From positions 40,928 through 72,979 of the forward strand of contig PCUY01000074.1 in the NCBI GenBank assembly GCA_002787815.1: 32,052 nucleotides of DNA. The letters are read 5' to 3'. Below, in pieces: positions 21,101 through 32,052 of the stretch (within the stretch, counting starts at the first letter, position 1; each line of letters starts with the position of its first letter). A program made the position numbers and the translations under genes. The notes under the pieces were generated by a model. It saw nothing but the letters and a program-made list of their open reading frames with translations. It was not told the DNA's origin and made no database searches. Origin of the DNA: Bacteroidetes bacterium CG12_big_fil_rev_8_21_14_0_65_60_17 (lineage in GTDB: Bacteria > Bacteroidota > Rhodothermia > Rhodothermales > UBA10348).

Positions 21101-22281
21101 TCAAACACCGGCACGGTGATGTCGGCGACGGCATCAAACCGGGCAGGAGACAGCGCGGCTCGTGCATTCGGCACCGGAGTTTCCGGTAGTCCGGCGACAA
21201 ACAGACCGCGCTCGGTTCCGGCCCATAGCCGTCCCGCGTGCGATTCGACCGCCCTGACGGCGCCTGCCGGGCGCGCGTTTTCGGGTAGTTCCGAGAGGGC
21301 ATTGCCAAACTCGACAAGCGCCAGGCCATCGCTCGTCGAGAGCCAGAGTCGGCCGGCGCTGTCGAGTGTCAGCGATCTGATTTCGCCGAACGGAAGGCCG
21401 GCCGTATGGTCGAGTCGCGACACCGACGAAGTTTTCTGATCCACGACGAGCAGCCCGCTCGACCGGGTCCCAAGCGCGAGCCGGCCATCGGGCAGGCGGA
21501 CTCCGGAAAGAAGCCGGTAGGGACGCAGCCGATCGGCCAGAAACGTATCCCAGGGGGAGATGCGGCCGTTCAGGAAGTGCATGAATGCACCTGAGGCGGA
21601 GACGAGAAGCTGCGTCGTATCGGATGTGGCGACGGTGAGCGTCAACGCGTCGCGGGCAAACATCCTGGCATCTCCTTCGGCAAGGGTGAACTGGCCGTTG
21701 TCATAGCGACTCAGGCCGCGCCCCCACTGGGATACCCAGAGCGCTCCATCTACCGTGAAAGCGTGCTGTACGGGTGCGTCCGTGGTGGTCGTGAGCAGTG
21801 TATCGGACCGGGCATCGAACAGGCGATTGGCGGTAATGAAATAAATGCCACGTGCGTGCGGCAGGGCGGCCAGGACGTCGTCGAAACGGCCACGACCCTC
21901 ACTGGCCGCATCCAGAAACGACGTGAACACCGGCCGGTAAACGGAGTCGGGTACCAGACGTCCAAGCTCGGCCGTTGCCCCGACGTAGAGCATCTGGTCA
22001 TGGACGGCAAGTCGCTGCGGTGTGCGGCGCCCCGGCAGGGGGAGCAGCCGCCACGACAGGCCATCGTACTCGAGGAGTCCTTCTTCATTGGCGGCATAGA
22101 CGAGGCCCTCGTCCAGCACGGCGATATCATGATTTCCGGGGTGATGACCGTATTCGGCCGGCGAAAAGTGCCGTACATGCGGAAATTCCGGTACCTGGGC
22201 GGCAACGGTGGTGCTCGGACCCAGTGCGGCCACTATTATGAGGAGCCGGTGGAGGTGTCGGGTGGGAAGAAGTCGGGTCAT
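18103..22281 (-). CDS. Beta-propeller hybrid sensor histidine kinase
   Basis: 1392 residues. A signal peptide (about 1-28) precedes a large periplasmic sensor of degenerate two-component propeller repeats (about 40-680; for example EIRSLTLDSAGRLWLSTSDG). A Y_Y_Y domain follows (about 690-755, IRYQTRLLGADDTWSEW) and one membrane helix (about 764-786). A long coiled coil (about 790-910) leads to HisKA with His919 in SHEIRTPMN, then HATPase (GNAVKF, DTGIGI, GGTGLGLA). A receiver has Asp1213 in LLLLDAKMP. The last 100 residues are helical and not a recognisable HPt. ATG 22281 is chosen because it opens the signal peptide. Unlike HTCS regulators it has no C-terminal DNA-binding domain, so output must go through other proteins. 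Confidence 0.94.
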   Translation of the reverse strand: MTRLLPTRHLHRLLIIVAALGPSTTVAAQVPEFPHVRHFSPAEYGHHPGNHDIAVLDEGLVYAANEEGLLEYDGLSWRLLPLPGRRTPQRLAVHDQMLYVGATAELGRLVPDSVYRPVFTSFLDAASEGRGRFDDVLAALPHARGIYFITANRLFDARSDTLLTTTTDAPVQHAFTVDGALWVSQWGRGLSRYDNGQFTLAEGDARMFARDALTLTVATSDTTQLLVSASGAFMHFLNGRISPWDTFLADRLRPYRLLSGVRLPDGRLALGTRSSGLLVVDQKTSSVSRLDHTAGLPFGEIRSLTLDSAGRLWLSTSDGLALVEFGNALSELPENARPAGAVRAVESHAGRLWAGTERGLFVAGLPETPVPNARAALSPARFDAVADITVPVFDILSTTQGLFIAAGDGVHLWREDTPDMLHVAIPGVPQTILPYRAASDTTTTETWVVGHTRGLTLLRFDPLSGALTAPLHAEEDLGFVSYLAAARDGTIWAGLSPSGLVMTRFDSTFARAVRFDERSGLGAGITRPVVLGGQVRFLGRAGLQRYDPDSNRFVNDASLIRLVDGPPDRISWVGEDGLDRTWMFSPSLSGRIRTDDDTEGVLVRYEDLQRLSSTRLTDFLCTSPSACWIATDRGLFLFNETRVRPRRQTPAPLIRQVRTRGRLLFGGLAPDANDMPTFTLPYEENGFAIAFAVPDFDQIGSIRYQTRLLGADDTWSEWSLNPAASWAGLMEGTYTFEVRARGTMGSISSVRSMSFDIRPPWHRTWWVYLLYVLFLGTTILLAGRALGRFHVSRLEASNRRLEERLGAQTAALETQRRELAERNKELTGRNRQIQQTRMQLQIQLDELRTTKNRIEEQARQLSAQNTEMDIQRREVDRQKRLLSKANEALELSSERAERFAEEADRANQAKSRFLANMSHEIRTPMNAILGFTDLLARRVTEADMRRWVDHIQTSARSLLTLINDILDLSKVEAGKLDIEPRLADLHQIVHDIGVVFRQKAEEKGIALRTEIDEDVPRMVTLDDHRLRQVLLNLVGNAVKFTSRGHVVLRTRLNAPVSGDAATLRFEVEDTGIGIAVDQLDTVFGAFDQAAGQTAAEYGGTGLGLAISRRLVELMGGDISVRSATGKGSTFQVVLRDVPVGPVSGDVAAQDDFAANEERPFLPARILVADDNARNRELMRAMLEPMGLQVDEVANGVGVLEKLAEHPVDLLLLDAKMPVMNGLETARRIRSARAVAELPIVVISAAVMSEEVAELRRLADAYLPKPIGRDDLIRTLSRFLAQDVTQAEAPHLQKKDTLVDGPDPYRVTIADDTLQKELSALSPAWQVARDRQVVGDIESLAYSVQDLARRYAHSELERIADILFRAAASFDPDQMARAVEAVGPLIHPSTDAS

Positions 22282-22374
22282 ACCGCCGCATGGAAAACGG
22301 AAAGGTACACGCCGGAGCACAGTATATTGCTCCCCGATACCCGCTGGTACGGAAACCTGTCCCTCGTTTGCGCT

Positions 22375-23745
22375 ATGCCGCGTCTCCTTATTGTCGATGA
22401 CGAGCCTTCCATCCGCCGCACGCTGAAGGAATTGATGACCATGCAGAAGTATGACGTGGTCGAAGCCGAAAATGGTGCCGAGGGCCTCCGGAAAATAGAG
22501 GCCGAGTCGTTCGATCTTGTCCTCTCGGACATGATGATGCCGGAAATGAACGGCATGGAGCTTCTCAAGGCGGCCAAATCCCGGTGGCCGGACCTCCCGT
22601 TCGTGATGCTCACGGCCAATGCCACGATTGAGCTGGCCGTCGAGGCCATCAAGGAGGGTGCCTACGATTTCGTGCCCAAGCCGCCCAACCTGCAGCGCTT
22701 TCTGGTTACGGTCCGCAATGCACTCGATGCCGAGAAGTTGCAGCGGGAGCATACGCGCATGAAAGCACGCCTCGAGAAAATTGACACCTCCATTCCACCG
22801 CTTCTCGGAGAAAGTCCCGCCATGAAGCGGATCAAGAAACTGCTGCACAAAGCCGCGCCATCAGAAGCCCGTGTACTCGTCACCGGCGAGGCCGGCAGCG
22901 GAAAGGAACTGATTGCCCAGTGGATTCACCATCTGTCCGTGCGCAGCTCGGGTCCCTTCGTGGCACTGAACTGTGCCGCCATTCCGGCTGAACTCATTGA
23001 AAGTGAGTTGTTCGGGCACGAAAAAGGCGCTTTCACGGGTGCACACAAACAGCATATCGGATCGTTCGAGCAGGCCGACGGCGGGACGCTGTTCCTCGAT
23101 GAAGTGGGCGACATGTCACCGGGCGCCCAGGCCAAAGTGCTCCGCGTGTTGCAGGAGAGTCAGGTCAGGCGCGTGGGAGGCGACAAGGCCATTTCGATTG
23201 ATGTGCGTGTCGTGGCGGCCACCAACAAGAACCTGGAGGAAGCGATTGAAACCGGGGAGTTCCGGGACGACCTCTTTCATCGCTTGGCGGTCATCCGCGT
23301 GGAGTCGCCGCCCCTGCGCGAGCGCCTGGAGGACATAGACCTACTGGCTACACATTTCTGCGAGCAGCTCAGCGTTCGCAACGGCATGCCTGGCAAATAC
23401 TTTTCTGACGAGGCGCTGCATCAGCTGCGTACCTTTCCCTGGCGCGGAAACGTGCGCGAGCTGCATAACGCCGTGGAACGCCTTATAGTCCTCAGTGACA
23501 ACGACGAAATCAGCGTCGACGATGTGGATCTCTTTGCCAACCCGGGAAAGGCCCCCCAGGACTCGATTGCCTACCTGGCAGAGCAGCACCCGAGGATTGC
23601 CGACTTCCGGGATGCGGCCGAAGCGGCATTCCTTCGCCGCAAACTGGCAGCCGTGGACGGCAATATTTCCCGCCTCTCCGAGGAAATAGATCTTCAGCGC
23701 TCGAACATCTATGCCAAGCTGAAGAAGTTCGGAATTGAATATTAA
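22375..23745 (+). CDS. NtrC-type sigma-54-dependent response regulator
   Basis: 456 residues. A receiver (1-115) has Asp8-Asp9, acceptor Asp52 in LVLSDMMMP and Lys102. The AAA+ domain (about 143-375) has Walker A GEAGSGKE (171-178), the sigma-54 contact loop GAFTGA (218-223), Walker B TLFLDE (238-243) and the arginine-finger region FRDDLFHRLAVIRV. A Fis-type HTH ends the protein (DGNISRLSEEIDLQRSNIYA). When phosphorylated it should activate sigma-54 promoters. It diverges from the propeller kinase across 93 bp, so the two probably share a control region and a signalling path. ATG 22375 starts the receiver exactly; the open frame upstream overlaps the kinase gene. No sigma-54 promoter was found in the window by eye. 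Confidence 0.95.
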   Translation: MPRLLIVDDEPSIRRTLKELMTMQKYDVVEAENGAEGLRKIEAESFDLVLSDMMMPEMNGMELLKAAKSRWPDLPFVMLTANATIELAVEAIKEGAYDFVPKPPNLQRFLVTVRNALDAEKLQREHTRMKARLEKIDTSIPPLLGESPAMKRIKKLLHKAAPSEARVLVTGEAGSGKELIAQWIHHLSVRSSGPFVALNCAAIPAELIESELFGHEKGAFTGAHKQHIGSFEQADGGTLFLDEVGDMSPGAQAKVLRVLQESQVRRVGGDKAISIDVRVVAATNKNLEEAIETGEFRDDLFHRLAVIRVESPPLRERLEDIDLLATHFCEQLSVRNGMPGKYFSDEALHQLRTFPWRGNVRELHNAVERLIVLSDNDEISVDDVDLFANPGKAPQDSIAYLAEQHPRIADFRDAAEAAFLRRKLAAVDGNISRLSEEIDLQRSNIYAKLKKFGIEY

Positions 23746-23809: not shown

Positions 23810-24898
23810 TCAGGCTCCCGGCAGCGTGATGATGAAACGCGTTCCGTGGGGCGATACCGATTCAGCGCGGATGGCTCCATCCATGGCATCCATGGCCAGG
23901 CGACAGAATGCGAGTCCGAGTCCCACACCCGCCCGAACATCCGATTCGGCCGACTCCACCTGGTAATACCTGTCGAAAATCCGCTCGTGCAGGTCATCGG
24001 CAATGCCTGGACCGTCGTCCTCGACGACCAGCTGTACGTGTCCATTCTCCGGGCGCGCAGAAAGAAGTATTCGCGTGGCGGGACGAGCATACTTGAGGGC
24101 GTTGGCCAACAGATTGGCCAGCACGCGTCCAAGCAGCAGTTCATCGGCCTGCACCACAATCCCCCCGTCCATCTCGATTTCGAGGGCCAGGTCACGGTCT
24201 TTCGCAAACGGCGCATATTCCGCTTTGATCTGTGCCAGAAACGAGCCCATGTCGATGCTGTTTGCATGTACGGGCATCGTGCCCGACTCCAGCTTCGAGA
24301 GGTCCAGCATGGACTCGATCATGGTACCCATGGCAGATGCCGCGCGCTCCAGATGACCGAGCCGGTCCGCATCACCTTCGCCCAGCATCCGCATCATCTG
24401 CAGGTTCATCTGGATGACCGAAAGCGGGTTGCCCAGATCGTGCACAATCATGTGCGTGAGTGCATCTCGCATCCGGATCAGATCCTGTTCGGCTTCCCGG
24501 AGCCTCTTCTTTTCGAGACTTCCCGACAGTCTCGCCTCCAGGATTTTCGGATTGAACGGCTTTGAGAGAAAGTCGGTCGCGCCAAGCTCCAGACATCGCG
24601 CAATACTGGGTACATCGTCGCGCCCCGATATCATGATCACAGGAATGATCTGCAGCATGTCGTCGCCACGCATGAACTCAAGAACGCCGTATCCGTCGAG
24701 TTCGGGCATGTCAATATCGAGAAGCACCGCATCGAAGGGCTCTTCCTGCAGACGTTCGACAGCCTCCTTTCCGTTGTGACATGACTCGGACGCATAACCG
24801 AGCGCGTGGAGGTATTCGCCGAGCAGGTCCCGGTTGAGCTTGCTGTCGTCAACAACGAGAATGTGGGCCGTTTCAGGGCGTGATTGTGGATCGGTCAC
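23810..24898 (-). CDS. Second receiver-first histidine kinase
   Basis: 362 residues, soluble. A receiver (about 11-128) has Asp17-Asp18, acceptor Asp61 in LLDIDMPELDG and Lys113 in LSKPF. A short helical linker leads to HisKA with His153 in MIVHDLGNPLSVIQMN, then HATPase with N-box LANLLANALKYA, G1 EDDGPGIADD and G2 GVGLGLAFCRLAMDA. It has the same domain order as the kinase at 16955-18106 but belongs to a different H-box subtype (HDLGNPL versus RHEVNNAL), so the two are not recent copies. GTG 24898 is chosen from where the receiver begins; the frame is open to 25114 with no homology. It converges with the NtrC gene, 64 bp between stops. Confidence 0.9.
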   Translation of the reverse strand: MTDPQSRPETAHILVVDDSKLNRDLLGEYLHALGYASESCHNGKEAVERLQEEPFDAVLLDIDMPELDGYGVLEFMRGDDMLQIIPVIMISGRDDVPSIARCLELGATDFLSKPFNPKILEARLSGSLEKKRLREAEQDLIRMRDALTHMIVHDLGNPLSVIQMNLQMMRMLGEGDADRLGHLERAASAMGTMIESMLDLSKLESGTMPVHANSIDMGSFLAQIKAEYAPFAKDRDLALEIEMDGGIVVQADELLLGRVLANLLANALKYARPATRILLSARPENGHVQLVVEDDGPGIADDLHERIFDRYYQVESAESDVRAGVGLGLAFCRLAMDAMDGAIRAESVSPHGTRFIITLPGA

Positions 24899-25359
24899 GG
24901 TGTGGACGCATGTGTGGAACAACCTGTGTGAAGCCGTGCGCTGCACGCTGCAAGTATACGCACCGTGTCGACTCGGCCCCAATACTGTTTCGAAATCGAA
25001 ACACAACCATACCTTACTCCCGGACGGGTTCGCCGTCACCCCCCTTTTTTCTGTAGATGCGGCGAACGGCGGATGGACTGGTACGGGGTTTGCCCCTTGT
25101 AGCCGTGACACCAACCGCGATCGACATGAATACTGTACAAACCGCCTGGAAACCGCTCTTCGTGATATCGCCCGATACGGCGCGCAAGGCGCGCATGTAC
25201 CGACTTTCGTCGGTCAGGCCTTCCAATGAGCGCCCCGCCTGGATCCGGCTGGACCGGGCCGTCCGTTCAGCCTGTCCCATATACCGGATTCCGCATGCGG
25301 AATTGGATGTGCCCATCTGGCGACTATAACAGGGCACGGTGTTTGTACCCGTTACTGTT
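24899..25359. other. 461-bp intergenic stretch with undecided small ORFs
   Basis: The stretch lies between the divergent REC-kinase gene and the pilin-like gene. It holds a strong dyad at 24986-25003. Two overlapping opposite ORFs are open: plus 25057-25329 (90 residues, MRRTADGLVRGLPLVAVT start) and minus 25014-25316 (100 residues, basic, with SPSAVRRIYRKKGG near its end). Neither has a Shine-Dalgarno sequence, a signal peptide or a family I recognise, and they exclude each other in most of their length. I therefore call no gene here. The right part must carry the promoter of the pilin-like operon. Confidence 0.4.
24986..25003. promoter_or_regulatory. Perfect 8+8 operator-like dyad
   Basis: TGTTTCGA-AA-TCGAAACA: two perfect 8-bp arms with a 2-bp spacer, 88 bp upstream of the receiver-first kinase gene and 357 bp upstream of the pilin-like gene. 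It has the size and symmetry of a dimeric repressor site (TetR or MarR type). The cognate protein is unknown. Confidence 0.45.
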
Positions 25360-25821
25360 GTGAAACTTCGATTCCTGCATATCCTCGTTCTGGCCGGATT
25401 GTTCGGCGTGCTTGTCGCACCCGCGTCGGCGCAGCGTCTGATGATGCTCGGCAGCGGTGCCGTACAACTCAACGTATCTCCTTCGCCGCACGAAGGAGGT
25501 ACCTACCGGGATACGGACGAGTCGACGCGAATCCTGTGGAATCAGGCGCGGTCGCGCTCCAAGGTCACCGTTTCCACGTTCGCGCCAGGGCAGTCCTACA
25601 GGCTGTATGCGGAAGCCGTAAACGTCAAGCGTGGCGTATCGGTTGGTCGCGTCGAACTGCGCGACGGCATGCACGATACCGACCTGATCGTGAATATCGA
25701 GAAGAAGAAAGCAGGCTTCGCCAACATCCGCTACATTGCAGAGGCTGATATTACCGACGGATCGGACGAAACCGCCATGAGCGACCAGCATACAGTGACG
25801 TTCACCCTCACCGAGCAGTAA
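25360..25821 (+). CDS. Small exported pilin-like beta-sandwich protein
   Basis: 153 residues. The signal peptide (VKLRFLHILVLAGLFGVLVA, cleaved at ASAQ) is followed by about 128 strand-rich residues with an early VQLNVSPSP, a central KVTVSTFAPGQSYRLYAEAV and a final HTVTFTLTEQ. The end pattern (x-x-I-x-Y-x-x-x-A-D-I-T-D-G ... T-V-T-F-T-L-T) resembles exported Ig-like subunits of fibre systems, and the protein at 30703-31281 has a related layout. It is the first gene of a tight operon with a PapD-like and an usher-like protein (3-bp gap to the next gene), so it may be the structural subunit (inference). GTG 25360 is chosen over GTG 25339 because it opens the signal peptide. Confidence 0.68.
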   Translation: MKLRFLHILVLAGLFGVLVAPASAQRLMMLGSGAVQLNVSPSPHEGGTYRDTDESTRILWNQARSRSKVTVSTFAPGQSYRLYAEAVNVKRGVSVGRVELRDGMHDTDLIVNIEKKKAGFANIRYIAEADITDGSDETAMSDQHTVTFTLTEQ

Positions 25822-25824
25822 TCC

Positions 25825-26673
25825 ATGGTTTCTGACCGCATGTTGCGACGCGCTGCTGCGAACGGCGCCATGGTGGCGGCCGGCCTCCTGGTGGTAGTCC
25901 TGACCACGAGTGCGGCCCTGGCGCAGATTACTGTCCGCGGCCAGCTGGCCCACGACATGGAGACCGTACCCGGAGCCACGCTCACGGGATCTGTCACGAT
26001 AGACAACGAGACGAGCGAGTTGCAGCAGGCACGCGTATACCAGCGCGACTACCTTTTTTTCGCCGACGGCACCAATTCGTACGACGACCCGGGAAGCACC
26101 GCTCGCTCGAATGCGGACTGGATTACATTTTCACCGGAACAGGCCACGGTGCCGCCCAATGGCTCCGTAACAGTTTCCTACCAGATCAATGTCCCCGACA
26201 GCGCTGGCGATGGCTCCTGGTGGAGTATGCTGATGGTCGAGGCAATTGACCGTGACTCCCGCGAGTCCACGCTTGGCGACGATGCGCCCCCCGAGAGGGA
26301 GGTCGGCTTCCGGCAGGTGACGCGCTACGGAGTACAACTTGCAACGCATGTCAACCCGACTACCGCCGAGCCGGGTATTGATCTGGACAATGTCAGCCTG
26401 CAGGCGCTCGAGGACGGGCGTACCATGTTTCAGATCGATGTTCTCAACGTGGGCCGTATCATGATGCGTCCCGATGTTTACATGCGTCTTTTCGATACAG
26501 ACGGAAATGAGTATGGTCCATTTCAAGGTGTCCAGTACCGGCTCTACCCCAACACGTCGACGCGTCAGCGCATTGAGTTGGTCGGTGTACCCGCCGGTAC
26601 CTACCAGGCGGTGTTCGTAGTCGATGCAGGCGGCGATGCTGTGTTCGGCGGCCAGTTCGAATTGACGCTCTGA
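25825..26673 (+). CDS. PapD-like periplasmic chaperone candidate
   Basis: 282 residues. A signal peptide (about 1-32, MVAAGLLVVVLTTSAALA) is followed by two Ig-like parts. The first (about 33-145) has the logic of a fimbrial chaperone N-terminal domain: an opening ITVRGQLAHD strand, SVTIDNETSELQQARV, then ADWITFSPEQATVPPNGSV and a W-W-S-M-L-M-V-E strand. The second (about 165-282) has TMFQIDVLNVGRIMMRPDVY and TYQAVFVVDAGGD. PapD-family proteins hold unfolded subunits in the periplasm before export by an usher. The family match is by pattern only. It lies between the subunit-like and usher-like genes, with gaps of 3 and 2 bp. Confidence 0.68.
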   Translation: MVSDRMLRRAAANGAMVAAGLLVVVLTTSAALAQITVRGQLAHDMETVPGATLTGSVTIDNETSELQQARVYQRDYLFFADGTNSYDDPGSTARSNADWITFSPEQATVPPNGSVTVSYQINVPDSAGDGSWWSMLMVEAIDRDSRESTLGDDAPPEREVGFRQVTRYGVQLATHVNPTTAEPGIDLDNVSLQALEDGRTMFQIDVLNVGRIMMRPDVYMRLFDTDGNEYGPFQGVQYRLYPNTSTRQRIELVGVPAGTYQAVFVVDAGGDAVFGGQFELTL

Positions 26674-26675
26674 CG

Positions 26676-29600
26676 GTGATACGAATGAGGGGCCCCCGGT
26701 ATGCCCTGTCGGTTTCTGTTCTGGGATGGTTTCTTTTGCTCGCGTGGGGCTCGATGCCTCGCGCAGCCTGTGCGCAGACGGTGCGCGTGTCGGCGCCCGA
26801 GCGCGTGGAAGCGGAGCCCGGCATGGTCATCTCCCTGCCGGTACGCGTTGTCGCCACCGGGGAGATGACGCTGCGTCTCGATCCGGTGCTGCCGCCCGGC
26901 TGGAGCATTCTGATACCACCACCTGCCATGAGCATGTCCCCGGGCACGCCCGCGACGCGGATAGTATCGATCCAGATCCCTTCCAGTGCAGCAGCCGGCG
27001 TGTGGCGTGTGGCATTCCGTGTGCGCGGGCAGCCGGATGACACCGCTGCCGCAGGGCCAGGTGCCGAAGGCTCGCTCCCTGCAGCCGAAACAGAAATAAC
27101 GGTTACCGAGCGCACCAGCCTTACGCTTTCGCTCGTCGATGCCCCCTCCCGCGTGCGTGCGGGCGCGCCGGTCGAGGCCACTTTTGCCATCGAAAACACC
27201 GGCAACCATACCGCTTCGTTCCGGATCGAGGCGGAAAGCTCGCTGCAATACGACACGCGTGTGGCGCCGGATCTGATCGAACTTGAACCATCGGCCCGGT
27301 CGCAAGTCCAGGTCCAGGCCCGCACGCGGGACGACCTGGTCAACGAGCTGACGCACGTGTTGCGGATCCGTGCGCAGGAGGAGGGTGAACGCGGGACGGG
27401 AGAAGAGAGCCGGGCCACGACGCAGATCGTGCCTGTCCGCCGGCCGGCCCGGCGACTCGAGGAAGGGCAGCTTCCGGTGCTGTTCACGGTGCGGGGCACC
27501 ACGGAGTCCGGTCGAAGCGACGCGCAGGCAGAATTCGAGATCCCGGCGACACGCGTCGGAGACCGGGTATATTCCGCCAGGCTTCGGGGACCGGACATGC
27601 GGTCGAATGCCGCGTTCGGGGAGCGGGACGAATACGCCGCCCAGATGGAAGGACGCCACATTGGCCTTCGCATGGGCGATCAGGATTATCGGCTGTCGGA
27701 TCTTCTCGACACCTCTTTCTTCGCGTTCGGGGGAGAGTTGTCCCTGGATCGTGACCGCGTGCAGGGAGCCGCATTTGCTTCTCGAACGCGTCACGTGTTT
27801 CCGGAAACGGGACGTGCCGGGGCCTATGTGCACCTGTGGCCACACCAAAAGGTGGCCGTTGAACTGAACGCACTGACCAGGGAAAAATTCGAGCCGGGTG
27901 AGGCGGCTTCCATTGCGACCCGGTGGCTACCCGTGGACGGGGCGGAGCTGGCCGCCGAGGTGGCCCACGGGTGGTATGACATTGGCGAAGGCAGCGCTCT
28001 GCAGCTTTCGGCGCAGGGATCGTTTCCCTGGATCGTGTTTTCAGGTCGCGCCGAAACAGCCGACCCGTTCTTCCTGGGGGGTATCCAGAACTCGGAGCGC
28101 CTGCAGAGCAGCTTCGCCGTCCGCGGAAACCACTGGATCCGGATCGAAGGGCTCGGCCGTGCGGAGCGCCGGTTTTTCGATGCATCCAGAAGCCGGGACC
28201 GCGCACTCGAGAACAGGCTCTTTCGAGGCGGGGCGGGCGGCTCTTTTTCCCTTGGAAACAACCGGCTGCAGACCATGCTGGTCGGTCAGTTCCAGGATCG
28301 CCGGGTCGCCGAGACCGGACTCGACCGCCAGGAGAAGAGCGTCGCGCTCCGTCTCAACTTCAACAGCCGCGGTTTCGGACTCAATGCCAGCGGGGAAACG
28401 GGCCGGATTGTCGACGACGGTTTTTCCGAGGGCACGTTTTCGTCGGTCAGCGGATCGGCATTCAAGGTAATGCGAGCCTTCTCACTCAGCCTGACGGCAT
28501 CCTACTTGGAAGGAATCACATTCTTCAGTCCGCGTGAACAGGAGCGCGTAACAGTGGGATCGACGCTGTCGTTTGACGCAGGCCGCGGGCTCAGCGCCTC
28601 GGCATCGGCCTTCCGAAGCCGCGAGACGGGTGCTTTTTCGCAGACGTTCACTTTGTTCGATGCGCGCGTGGCGGCATCCCTGTGGTCGAACCACGAACTG
28701 GAACTGCGGGCACGGGGGTCGCAGACCAGCTTTTCGTCAGATGTGCGCACGGGAACGTTCAGCCTTGCCTATCGCATTCCGTTTTCGGTCCGGGCGCCGT
28801 TCTCCGGGGAGCGGACACAGACGACGGTTTCTTTCCGCGTGTTCGACGTGGAAACAGGCGAGCCGCTGAAGGGCGTCGTCTTTGTGGCGGGTCGGACGCG
28901 GGCCGATTCGGACAGCGATGGATTGGCCCGGCTGGTCCTCACCGGCGGGGAGCAGTTCGTATTGCTGGACCAGGAGTCGATTGGCCTTGACCGCATGCCG
29001 ACGGTGCCTTTTCCCATTGAGGTCGGTGCGGTGTCCCAGGGGGTCACGGACGTCGGTATTGTGCGATCCTCGCGCTTGAGCGTGCGTGTCGAAGCGGGTC
29101 GTCGGCAAACGGAGCTCGATGCCGCGCTAGGAAGCGACCTGGATCGACGTGCGCTTTCCGGGCTGGTTGTTGAGGCCCGGATGGGCGAGAATCGGTTCCG
29201 ACGCCTGACCGACGAGGAAGGCAGGGCGCAGTTTCCGCCACTCGTACCGGGGTTGTGGGAGGTATTCCTGCTCGATAGATCTCTGCCCGAGAATTACCGG
29301 ACGGCACCGGAGAGCGCATTGGTAGAGCTCATTCCCGGCGGAGTTGGCGAGACGGTGTTTCGTCTCGAGCCGGCCGAAAGGCGCATTCGTTTCGTGACGA
29401 GTGGAACGGGCGTATCGGTTGGCGTCCCGGGAAAAGCGATCGGTGCCCAGGCCGCGCCCGGTGCAGACGCCGCGCCCGCGCCAGCCGGAGACGGAAATGA
29501 CGACATGGACGGCACCGAAATGGAGGACGCCGAAATGTACGGCCGGACAGTCCGCGTGAAACAGGGCGATACGCTCTTTTCGTTGGCACGACAGCATTAT

Positions 29601-29756
29601 GAGAGCCAGTGGCACTGGGTCCGGATATGGCTTGCCAACCGGGATGTGCTCGAATTGCCGGATCTCGTTCCCGCCGGTACGGTGCTCAGGCTTCCTGCGA
29701 CCGGCCCGCTTACCGAGGAGGAATGGCGGGTTATCCGTCGCCAAGGGGACGAGTAG
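26676..29756 (+). CDS. Usher-like outer-membrane protein with NEW3, CnaB-like and LysM domains
   Basis: 1026 residues. A signal peptide (about 1-33) leads to two Ig-like NEW3-type domains (about 35-140 and 149-240, with VEATFAIENTGNHTASFRIE). A long run of amphipathic strands (about 300-710) alternates aromatic and polar residues, as in a large outer-membrane barrel: GFGLNASGETGRIVDDGF, then SGSAFKVMRAFSLSLTASYL. Two carboxypeptidase/CnaB-like domains follow (about 717-800, FRVFDVETGEPLKGVVFVAG; 827-905, LVVEARMGENRFRRLTDEEG). An Ala/Pro and acidic linker (about 920-955) precedes a C-terminal LysM (VRVKQGDTLFSLARQ, about 957-1007). The barrel with a trailing CnaB domain suggests an usher that exports subunits; LysM may anchor it to peptidoglycan. 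GTG 26676 or ATG 26685 may be the start. Confidence 0.72.
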   Translation: MIRMRGPRYALSVSVLGWFLLLAWGSMPRAACAQTVRVSAPERVEAEPGMVISLPVRVVATGEMTLRLDPVLPPGWSILIPPPAMSMSPGTPATRIVSIQIPSSAAAGVWRVAFRVRGQPDDTAAAGPGAEGSLPAAETEITVTERTSLTLSLVDAPSRVRAGAPVEATFAIENTGNHTASFRIEAESSLQYDTRVAPDLIELEPSARSQVQVQARTRDDLVNELTHVLRIRAQEEGERGTGEESRATTQIVPVRRPARRLEEGQLPVLFTVRGTTESGRSDAQAEFEIPATRVGDRVYSARLRGPDMRSNAAFGERDEYAAQMEGRHIGLRMGDQDYRLSDLLDTSFFAFGGELSLDRDRVQGAAFASRTRHVFPETGRAGAYVHLWPHQKVAVELNALTREKFEPGEAASIATRWLPVDGAELAAEVAHGWYDIGEGSALQLSAQGSFPWIVFSGRAETADPFFLGGIQNSERLQSSFAVRGNHWIRIEGLGRAERRFFDASRSRDRALENRLFRGGAGGSFSLGNNRLQTMLVGQFQDRRVAETGLDRQEKSVALRLNFNSRGFGLNASGETGRIVDDGFSEGTFSSVSGSAFKVMRAFSLSLTASYLEGITFFSPREQERVTVGSTLSFDAGRGLSASASAFRSRETGAFSQTFTLFDARVAASLWSNHELELRARGSQTSFSSDVRTGTFSLAYRIPFSVRAPFSGERTQTTVSFRVFDVETGEPLKGVVFVAGRTRADSDSDGLARLVLTGGEQFVLLDQESIGLDRMPTVPFPIEVGAVSQGVTDVGIVRSSRLSVRVEAGRRQTELDAALGSDLDRRALSGLVVEARMGENRFRRLTDEEGRAQFPPLVPGLWEVFLLDRSLPENYRTAPESALVELIPGGVGETVFRLEPAERRIRFVTSGTGVSVGVPGKAIGAQAAPGADAAPAPAGDGNDDMDGTEMEDAEMYGRTVRVKQGDTLFSLARQHYESQWHWVRIWLANRDVLELPDLVPAGTVLRLPATGPLTEEEWRVIRRQGDE

Positions 29757-29918: not shown

Positions 29919-30686
29919 ATGTCACCTTCATACAGAACCGAGGAATACGTCCGCGCTTGGCTTGCCGAGCCATCCCAGAAGAACCGGGATCGCGTCGTGG
30001 GGTCCATGGAGCCCGTTATCAGGCACATCCTGTCCAGCCTTCGAACCCATGCCGGTGATATTCTGACGGAAAATGACCTGTTCCAGGCCGGGGTCGTAGG
30101 CGTGCTTCAGGCGCTCGATCAATTCCGTCCTGATATGGACGTCCGCTTCGTGACCTTTTCCTGGGTGCGCATTCGCGGCGAAATCATAGATCTGGTTCGC
30201 CGGATGGATCCCCTGCCCCGCCGCCGCCGGGCCAAGGTGGCGGCCATGTACCGCGCTGAAAACGAGCTGGCGCAGGAGAAGGGCGATTGGCCGCGGATGG
30301 AAGATGTGGCCAACAGGCTGCTGGTGGACCCGGTACACGTGGAAAATACGCGCATGGACGCGCGCCGCCGCGAGCGGCTTTCGCTTCACACGACTATCGG
30401 AGAAGCAGGCGAGTCCGAACTGGTCGAAATGCTTGAGGCTCCCGATGGTTTGGAGCGGTTTGATGACGCCGAATGGTTGGACGTATCGCGTCATCTGACA
30501 AGGGCTCGTCGGCTGCTTACCCAGCGTGAACAGGACATACTCGACCTGTTCTACAACGAGCAGCTGACGCAGGCGGAAATTGGATCCATACACGGCATAT
30601 CGGAGGCACGGGTATCCCAGGTTCGGCGCCGGGCGATAGAGAAATTGCGCCCCCGTGTGGAGGCTACGCTGCGAACAGCAGCGTAA
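29919..30686 (+). CDS. FliA/WhiG-type alternative sigma factor
   Basis: 255 residues of the sigma-70 family group 3. Region 2 has LTENDLFQAGVVGVLQALDQ and VRFVTFSWVRIRGEIIDLVR with DPLPRRRRAK, the hallmark of FliA/WhiG sigma factors. Region 3 is around WPRMEDVANRLLVDP. Region 4 ends with TQREQDILDLFYNEQLTQAE and IGSIHGISEARVSQVRRRAI. It directs RNA polymerase to a separate promoter set, classically flagellar or sporulation genes. No flagellar genes are in the window. It starts 162 bp after the usher-like gene, and its stop lies 16 bp from that of the convergent second pilin-like gene. An association with the surface-fibre operon is suggested only by position. Confidence 0.92.
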   Translation: MSPSYRTEEYVRAWLAEPSQKNRDRVVGSMEPVIRHILSSLRTHAGDILTENDLFQAGVVGVLQALDQFRPDMDVRFVTFSWVRIRGEIIDLVRRMDPLPRRRRAKVAAMYRAENELAQEKGDWPRMEDVANRLLVDPVHVENTRMDARRRERLSLHTTIGEAGESELVEMLEAPDGLERFDDAEWLDVSRHLTRARRLLTQREQDILDLFYNEQLTQAEIGSIHGISEARVSQVRRRAIEKLRPRVEATLRTAA

Positions 30687-30702: not shown

Positions 30703-31281
30703 TCAAGGAAGCACGCCGAACTGGATATTCTGGTACGAGGTGTGGGATGTCCGCGATACCGGATCGACAACGGTAATGGTGAGCAGCCGATTCTCGATTT
30801 CAAGCTGATCGACGTCGTCGCTCACAACAAACTGAAAAGAGATAACCCGGCCGTTTTCCAACCCCCGTGACATTCCGGTGACAGCCGCCACGTCACGGCC
30901 ACCTCTCGTAACATCGACCCAGCCACTGCTCCTGCCGAGGGAGCTGGCAACTGACACGGCCAGGTGCGTACCGGTTGGCATGGGCCTGTCCAGACTGACT
31001 TCGATGCGCACGTTGTCGACATTTGAGGTCAGGTTGTAGAAGCTGCTCCCGTCCCGGACTACGGCATTTCCAGGTGTCACGTGTCTGTCTACAATAAGAG
31101 GTACAGGGTTGCTGCTCACGGCCATGACCACAATGGGCTCAACGCCAAGCCGCACGGTGTGCGAACCGGTGGCCAGCACCCGGCCCCCGGGAAGCGGCTG
31201 GGATACGGCCGCACCCGCCGCAAGTACCGTGACGAGTACTGCGGTGGCGAGAGGGGCGCGCACACGCCGAGACCGGTCCAT
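30703..31281 (-). CDS. Second exported pilin-like protein
   Basis: 192 residues. A basic start (MDRSRRVRAP) and hydrophobic core (LATAVLVTVLAAGAAVSQ) form a signal peptide. The mature chain is strand-rich: TVRLGVEPIVVMAVSSNP, then VDNVRIEVSLDRPMPTGTHL, then RVISFQFVVSDDVDQLEIEN and RLLTITVVDP. The layout (VRIEVSLDRPMPTGT ... SGWVDVTRGGRDV ... ISFQFVVSDDV ... LLTITVVD) parallels the last part of the protein at 25360-25821, suggesting that both belong to one group of exported Ig-like subunits. ATG 31281 is chosen to open the signal peptide; ATG 31317 is possible. It is convergent with the sigma-factor gene and lies 82 bp after the CBM2 protein gene on the same strand. Confidence 0.65.
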   Translation of the reverse strand: MDRSRRVRAPLATAVLVTVLAAGAAVSQPLPGGRVLATGSHTVRLGVEPIVVMAVSSNPVPLIVDRHVTPGNAVVRDGSSFYNLTSNVDNVRIEVSLDRPMPTGTHLAVSVASSLGRSSGWVDVTRGGRDVAAVTGMSRGLENGRVISFQFVVSDDVDQLEIENRLLTITVVDPVSRTSHTSYQNIQFGVLP

Positions 31282-31363: not shown

Positions 31364-32052
31364 TCAGCGCCCAAGCAGGATTTTTCGGGTTTCCGCGTGC
31401 CCCTGTCCGTCTTCCACGCGTACAAGGTAGAGGCCGGGGCTGAGAGAAGCCGCGCCTACGCGCAGCGCATGGCTGGCACTGGCAGAAAGCACGCCATCGT
31501 GCACAACCCGGACAAGACGACCAGAGACGTCCCAGAGCGTAGCGCGTACGTGGCTTGTCGCGCCGAGAGCGAGTTCAAGACGGGTTTCGGCATGGAATGG
31601 ATTCGGGTAGGGCATACCCAGTTCCAGGCCAGTCGGCAACTGGCCTGCATCGTCCGACTCGTTCGATACCTGCACCAATCGAAGGAACGTACAGGACTGG
31701 TTGCCGAATGCACATCCCAGCGGTTCGGCGAAGGTGCCGTCGTGGCTGCCGTCGAACCCGAATGTGATATTCTCGCCCGCTGGAATACAGGCATTGCTCT
31801 CGATGTTCGTGACGAGGTAGGATCCGTCAGGGTTCTGCGTGAAGACGCTCTCCCAGTGCCGTCCGACCGTCATGTTCTCGATGAGTGAGAATTGCAGGCT
31901 CCAGCCCCGGATGAACCCACTCGTGTTGTTCGTAATGCGGACAAGAGCCACGAACTGGGAGGACGTCACACTCAGGAACCGGAAATCAATATCCGGAAGT
32001 TGGGTTGTCGGCGCGACGCCGTCCGGACATGCACCGCCTGTATCGCCGCCAC
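31364..32052 (-). CDS. Secreted protein with family 2 cellulose-binding module and T9SS sorting domain (cut by window edge)
   Basis: The reading frame stays open to the window end; 229 C-terminal residues are seen. A segment with VALVRITNNTSGFIRGWSLQ, then VGRHWESVFTQNPDGSYLV and CIPAGENITFGFDGSHDG follows the family 2 carbohydrate-binding module pattern (W-x-x-x-F ... W-x-x ... G-x-x-x-x-x-N ... I-x-P-G-x-x-x-x-F-G-F-x-G). The last 85 residues are a T9SS sorting domain: MPYPNPFHAETRLEL, then ATLWDVSGRLVRVV and LSPGLYLVRVEDG. The protein is thus probably exported through T9SS to bind a polysaccharide such as cellulose or chitin. Any catalytic domain lies outside the window. Confidence 0.82.
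   Translation of the reverse strand, partial: GGDTGGACPDGVAPTTQLPDIDFRFLSVTSSQFVALVRITNNTSGFIRGWSLQFSLIENMTVGRHWESVFTQNPDGSYLVTNIESNACIPAGENITFGFDGSHDGTFAEPLGCAFGNQSCTFLRLVQVSNESDDAGQLPTGLELGMPYPNPFHAETRLELALGATSHVRATLWDVSGRLVRVVHDGVLSASASHALRVGAASLSPGLYLVRVEDGQGHAETRKILLGR

Follow-up and report, generated by a model that had tools for sequence, protein, structure and literature searches.

In the window analysed here, a stretch of 32,052 nucleotides from the genome of Bacteroidetes bacterium CG12_big_fil_rev_8_21_14_0_65_60_17 (assembly GCA_002787815.1, contig PCUY01000074.1, positions 40,928 to 72,979), an operon of three genes probably specifies chaperone-usher-like machinery that assembles a thin fibre on the cell surface. 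P0001 specifies a small immunoglobulin (Ig)-like subunit, P0002 a PapD-like chaperone and P0003 an outer-membrane barrel protein (Table 1). Evidence for this assignment comes from the gene order and its conservation, the folds of the products, the domain order of the barrel protein and the occurrence of two subunit classes. As a preliminary description of the window had it, the genes are tightly spaced, with gaps of 3 bp between P0001 and P0002 and 2 bp between P0002 and P0003; all are co-directional, and all three products have signal-peptide-like N-termini. Their positions agree as well, but that description overlooked the C-terminal LysM domain of P0003 and a further subunit-like gene, P0005. 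Translation of P0001 could start at a GTG codon at either 25339 or 25360, with the gene ending at 25821, and the start at 25360 gives the better signal peptide (VKLRFLHILVLAG...).

The three-gene arrangement is more than chance, since a second cassette in the host genome (2.9 Mb, 95.5% complete) shares the order and since the order is kept in about 100 loci of many phyla. The second cassette lies on contig 39, and its proteins are 37%, 40% and 24% identical, in gene order, to those of the window. Upstream of it are two extra small subunit genes and a large protein sorted by the type IX secretion system (T9SS). In this second cassette type of Rhodothermota, a T9SS-sorted protein of 993-2423 residues is encoded directly 5' of the subunit genes (L006:11817-14798, L035:2108-5185, L036:9036-13190 and L074:31-7302), so that T9SS cargo and fibre operon are placed as if they were partners. 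For counts of gene order, 102 fetched loci, about 94 of them distinct, were searched in six frames with profiles. The order of subunit or subunits, chaperone and barrel is nearly universal among them: the barrel gene is directly downstream of the chaperone gene in 98 and at least one subunit gene is upstream of it in 99, in line with the earlier expectation that the three genes would stay together. The distance matrices of chaperone and barrel are correlated across 48 loci (Mantel r 0.75, against a maximum of 0.26 in 999 permutations).

The chaperone gene is present in 18 of 60 genomes of the host's taxonomic order and in 15 of 148 genomes in a sample of the phylum. When 84,980 species genomes were scanned with an alignment of seven sequences, 80 loci were returned and 107 were confirmed. 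The cassette is spread over more than a dozen bacterial phyla, its hosts, going by the titles of the sequence records, comprising Rhodothermales and Bacteroidota, Ignavibacteria, KSB1, Zixibacteria, Krumholzibacteria, Delta- and Gammaproteobacteria, Planctomycetota, Spirochaetes, Acidobacteriota, Armatimonadetes, Elusimicrobia, Synergistaceae, Opitutaceae, Halanaerobiia (Orenia) and some Clostridia bins. Many of these hosts are metagenome-assembled genomes; isolates include Thiocapsa marina, Thiococcus pfennigii, Thiohalocapsa marina and Orenia metallireducens. All three genes are also carried on a complete plasmid of Deinococcus deserti, where they are annotated as a hypothetical protein, a FimB/Mfa2 fimbrial subunit and a carboxypeptidase regulatory-like protein. 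The system had been proposed as a distant version of the pilus-assembling chaperone-usher type in a T9SS-using bacterium; its likeness to chaperone-usher systems stands, but it is special neither to Rhodothermota nor to T9SS users.

The AlphaFold2 (AF2) model of P0002, built from 68 sequences, has a two-domain PapD-like fold with a predicted local distance difference test (pLDDT) score of 94.7. In Foldseek searches of the PDB, the first match is WxLIP of Enterococcus faecium (9i25 and 9i1y, E about 1e-12), with CsuC, CfaA, FaeE, DraB, FimC and Caf1M among the matches that follow, and VIA-align gives Z scores of 17.0 for WxLIP, 13.4 for CfaA, 12.5 for FimC and 11.9 for CsuC. The sole match of the P0002 family profile in the whole PDB is likewise WxLIP (hmmsearch, E 1.3e-4, 170 residues), and hhalign pairs the family with eight WxLIPs from plasmid records at 92% (E 5.7e-7, 232 columns). 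When WxLIP itself is aligned with FimC, EcpB and EcpE, the value is 2%. P0002 has no PapD_N or PapD_C match above the Pfam cut-off, and its WxLIP (DUF916-DUF3324) score is also below cut-off; in NCBIfam, too, its matches are all sub-threshold. The fold and its structural matches bear out the proposal that the middle protein is PapD-like, but its nearest known relative is WxLIP, not PapD. A 92.6% match to a fragment of E. faecium WxLIP at 101785-102283 of CP069367.1, a record labelled as a Klebsiella pneumoniae plasmid, is probably contamination or a chimeric assembly. In P0002 the predicted donor strand, G1, spans residues 167-176 and follows an F1-G1 loop of 25 residues (142-166). Residues 166, 168, 170 and 172 are hydrophobic in 81-100% of the 68 sequences, and Arg94 is invariant, as are Arg167 and Gln171 of the G1 strand. 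Arg94 and Arg167 might correspond to the invariant basic residues with which chaperones of the chaperone-usher pathway anchor the C-terminus of a subunit. The chain of P0002 ends with a strand at 273-281, and a membrane helix at the C-terminus is absent.

The subunits are described by three alignments (A10, A11 and A12), which were kept fixed because iterated hidden Markov model profiles of the subunits merged. The alignments are homologous by hhalign (99.7% for A11 with A12, 93.5% for A11 with A10), as is P0001 to the other subunits (99.7%). Nearly all subunits terminate in a TVTYT-like strand, which is HTVTFTLTEQ in P0001. Two classes differ in the length of an N-terminal extension, taken from the signal-peptide site predicted with our own heuristic to the start of the conserved body, with a threshold of 13 residues. 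In the subunit that adjoins the chaperone the median length is 5, with 73 of 79 below the threshold and an extension present in 6; the exceptions at this first position are mostly missed open reading frames and largely disappear with six-frame matches. Subunits encoded farther upstream have an extension of about 18-20 residues (median 19; at least 13 in 112 of 117). The association of extension with position has a Fisher p of 5e-40, uncorrected for relatedness. The A12-type body family is found in both positions, short near the chaperone and long far from it. Within the extension, residues alternate in a V-x-V-x-V pattern, being hydrophobic in 87-90% of cases at positions -12, -10 and -8 versus 9-19% at -11 and -9. 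As far as sequence can indicate, this is the pattern that would be expected of donor strands and of an extension-less tip subunit.

P0001 belongs to the extension-less class, its mature N-terminus being only about 5 residues ahead of the conserved body. P0005 belongs to the extension-bearing class, with an extension of about 30 residues and the N-terminal strand GSHTVRLGVEPIVVMAVSS; a homologue occurs at the same place in L030 and, by position, in L050 and L051. P0005 also has an extra C-terminal stretch, SRTSHTSYQNIQFGVLP, beyond the last strand common to the subunits, which might complete the protein's own fold and mark an end of the fibre. P0001 and the subunit families have only sub-threshold matches in Pfam and NCBIfam, with no pilin family above cut-off, and the matches of the subunit profiles in the PDB are taken as chance.

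P0003 was modelled with AF2 from 50 sequences, and because its pLDDT is 84.1 but its predicted template modelling score is 0.54, the single domains are good and their mutual arrangement is uncertain. A signal peptide is followed by Ig/NEW3 domains at about residues 36-118 and 136-252 and by a barrel at 265-706. Beyond the barrel lie two transthyretin/CarboxypepD_reg-like domains (about 715-899), a disordered linker (906-954) and the LysM domain (Pfam E 1.4e-5, 25.4 bits against a cut-off of 20.9). Pfam matches among 46 members of the P0003 family are to CarboxypepD_reg in 45, NEW3 in 24, SPOR in 10 and LysM in 5. LysM and SPOR are known binders of peptidoglycan. A periplasmic location of both ends of P0003 would agree with the even number of strands in the model and with the peptidoglycan-binding tails. 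Chains of FimD (E 9e-12) and PapC are among the top Foldseek matches of the protein.

From these features we infer that the cassette assembles a fibre by donor-strand complementation and exchange. Subunits would reach the periplasm with their Ig folds incomplete, and there P0002 would lend its G1 strand to each and carry it to P0003. The N-terminal Ig domains of P0003 would receive the chaperone-subunit complex, and the next subunit would insert its N-terminal strand in place of the chaperone strand, thereby joining subunits that would then pass through the barrel. P0001, which lacks an N-terminal strand, would go first and form the tip, and the shaft would be built from extension-bearing subunits, P0005 in the window and P0009 and P0010 in the second cassette. 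Through its LysM or SPOR tail, the barrel protein may tie the assembly platform to peptidoglycan. How a plug-less barrel might be closed is a matter of speculation; candidates are the conserved loops at 306-318 (RGPD...) and 339-347 (LSPLTE in homologues) or the C-terminal domains.

Several observations weigh against assembly of a fibre in this manner. By DSSP the barrel model has about 26 strands, two more than known ushers, and no plug of the kind by which those ushers are gated, its longest inter-strand loop being 13 residues. MtrB, which is not an usher, superposes on the barrel alone better than FimD does (VIA Z of 20.4 versus 17.0, with 16.9 for PapC). With hhalign, the barrel family does not match FimD or EcpC, a weak test with only two usher sequences, and the P0002 family matches three E. 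coli chaperones (FimC, EcpB and EcpE) weakly, at 13%. Only one subunit gene lies inside the operon of the window, and that the subunits lack a G strand is deduced from their sequences alone. Despite sufficient surrounding room, the barrel gene is missing from L046, L049 and L128 and subunit genes are missing from L046, L047 and L049; the divergent chaperone homologues in L046, L049 and L128 may have another job.

The affinity of P0002 to WxLIP raises the alternative that the cassette is a diderm counterpart of the WxL/WxLIP (DUF916-DUF3324) surface clusters of Gram-positive bacteria, in which P0002 would keep individual Ig proteins stably attached to the surface or peptidoglycan as a coat and the barrel would serve for their export, with no polymer being formed. 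In fold and in sequence alike, the match of P0002 to WxLIP exceeds that to any chaperone, and homology over both domains is supported. The operon order is identical in that a gene for a small Ig-like partner, the WxL protein, is directly ahead of the WxLIP gene; the partner proteins end in a YxxTLTWxL strand similar to the subunit ends, and the LysM and SPOR tails are of types known to bind peptidoglycan. In a published model of the two proteins, WxLIP contributes a long hairpin strand that pairs in parallel and so completes the WxL sandwich (PMC10599100). This pairing seems to resemble donor-strand complementation; the words chaperone, PapD and fimbria do not occur in the text of that paper. 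Unlike the WxL clusters, the cassette has an outer-membrane barrel and diderm hosts, and P0002 lacks the C-terminal transmembrane helix of WxLIP. No WxL domain is matched by the subunits, either in Pfam or in hhalign comparisons of WxL small proteins with the three subunit families. Moreover, N-terminal strands that are so regularly present in one subunit class and absent from the other would be useless in a monomeric coat, and we consider a coat of this kind unlikely.

A canonical chaperone-usher locus of the archaic or alternative type, diverged beyond recognition by Pfam, is less likely still. In common with the chaperone-usher pathway (FimC-FimD, CsuC, CfaA/CooC), the cassette forms a single operon that encodes a two-domain PapD-like chaperone with an F1-G1 hairpin, small Ig-like subunits that have N-terminal strands except in one class, and a barrel whose flanking domains, on the N-terminal side and as a C-terminal pair of beta-sandwiches, come in the order seen in ushers. 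In addition to the Foldseek matches of P0003 to FimD and PapC, CfaA is the pilus chaperone nearest to P0002, and the P0003 homologue in L075 has a weak CooC_C match (25.5 bits, cut-off 29). No Usher match above the Pfam cut-off is found in P0003 or its homologues, however, and the host genome has no match to the Usher domain (PF00577) in a search that found E. coli. The definition of an usher includes a plug domain inserted in the barrel (PMC11001860), and usher barrels have 24 strands. None of the 50 barrel homologues has an insert of more than 26 residues, and with a barrel segment of 418-485 residues throughout, no family member has room for an usher-type plug. P0003 differs further in its two N-terminal NEW3/Ig domains, its transthyretin-like C-terminal domains and its LysM or SPOR tail. 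Because the modelled barrel departs from ushers in strand number and in having no plug, and because no sequence-family test gave a match above a cut-off, the cassette is not filed under the chaperone-usher pathway, and the earlier view that its parts differ from FimD and PapC holds.

It is most improbable that P0003 is a porin of the MtrB kind or a general secretion channel whose exported proteins are unrelated to it. In favour of such a role, MtrB of the Mtr complex (PDB 6r2q) is the best barrel-only match and has a large plug-less outer-membrane barrel; against it, P0003 has flanking domains and is near-permanently paired with a PapD-like protein and Ig subunits. The MtrB barrel has 26 strands. 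An electron conduit of the MtrB type was rejected, since the cassette proteins tested contain no CxxCH haem motifs and the window system has no cytochromes.

The cassette of the window is flanked by regulatory genes (Table 1). The FliA/WhiG-type sigma factor gene also adjoins the cassette in L030, L033 and L050-L053, and because the set of response regulator, hybrid kinase and sigma factor recurs there in whole or in part, dedicated regulation of this cassette type is suggested. Also adjoining the fibre locus, at 31364-32050 on the minus strand, is a gene whose product combines a CBM2 cellulose-binding domain with a T9SS sorting tail.

Table 1. Features of the fibre locus and its neighbours, in coordinates of the window.
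Feature	Coordinates	Strand	Basis or remarks
P0001, subunit without N-terminal extension	25360..25821	+	Ig-like protein of about 128 residues when mature
P0002, PapD-like two-Ig-domain periplasmic chaperone, WxLIP-related	25825..26673	+	Fold and sequence profile; 282 residues
P0003, usher-like outer-membrane protein	26676..29756	+	1026 residues; model and Pfam domains
LysM-coding part of P0003 (residues 960-1007), predicted peptidoglycan anchor	29553..29696	+	Pfam
P0005, second subunit-like gene, candidate extension-bearing fibre subunit	30703..31281	-	Aligns with extension-bearing subunit family
FliA/WhiG-type sigma factor, possible regulator	29919..30686	+	TIGR02479 E 7.8e-44, below its cut-off
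Sigma-54-type response regulator, flanks cassette	21763-23745
Hybrid response-regulator/histidine kinase, flanks cassette	23810-25114	-

No prior description of the system was found in the literature searched, whose coverage excluded subscription journals and preprints. If the proposed function is correct, more than a dozen phyla, with cultured purple sulfur bacteria, Orenia and Deinococcus among the hosts, have a major class of surface fibre that has gone unannotated, hidden under labels such as 'hypothetical' or, in the Deinococcus record, 'FimB/Mfa2' and 'carboxypeptidase regulatory-like'. It would also provide an independent version of the chaperone-usher principle in which to study plug-free gating and peptidoglycan anchoring. 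More tentatively, and as a possibility rather than a probability, the cassette could represent a donor-strand fibre pathway in its own right, spread across phyla and homologous to WxL/WxLIP, which would link the WxL proteins of monoderms and the chaperone-usher pili of diderms as branches of one ancient strand-donating family, with the barrel gained or lost depending on the cell envelope. If the proposed function holds, the descent of PapD-like chaperones would also become testable, because P0002 is intermediate between the WxLIP of one-membrane bacteria and the PapD of those with two membranes.

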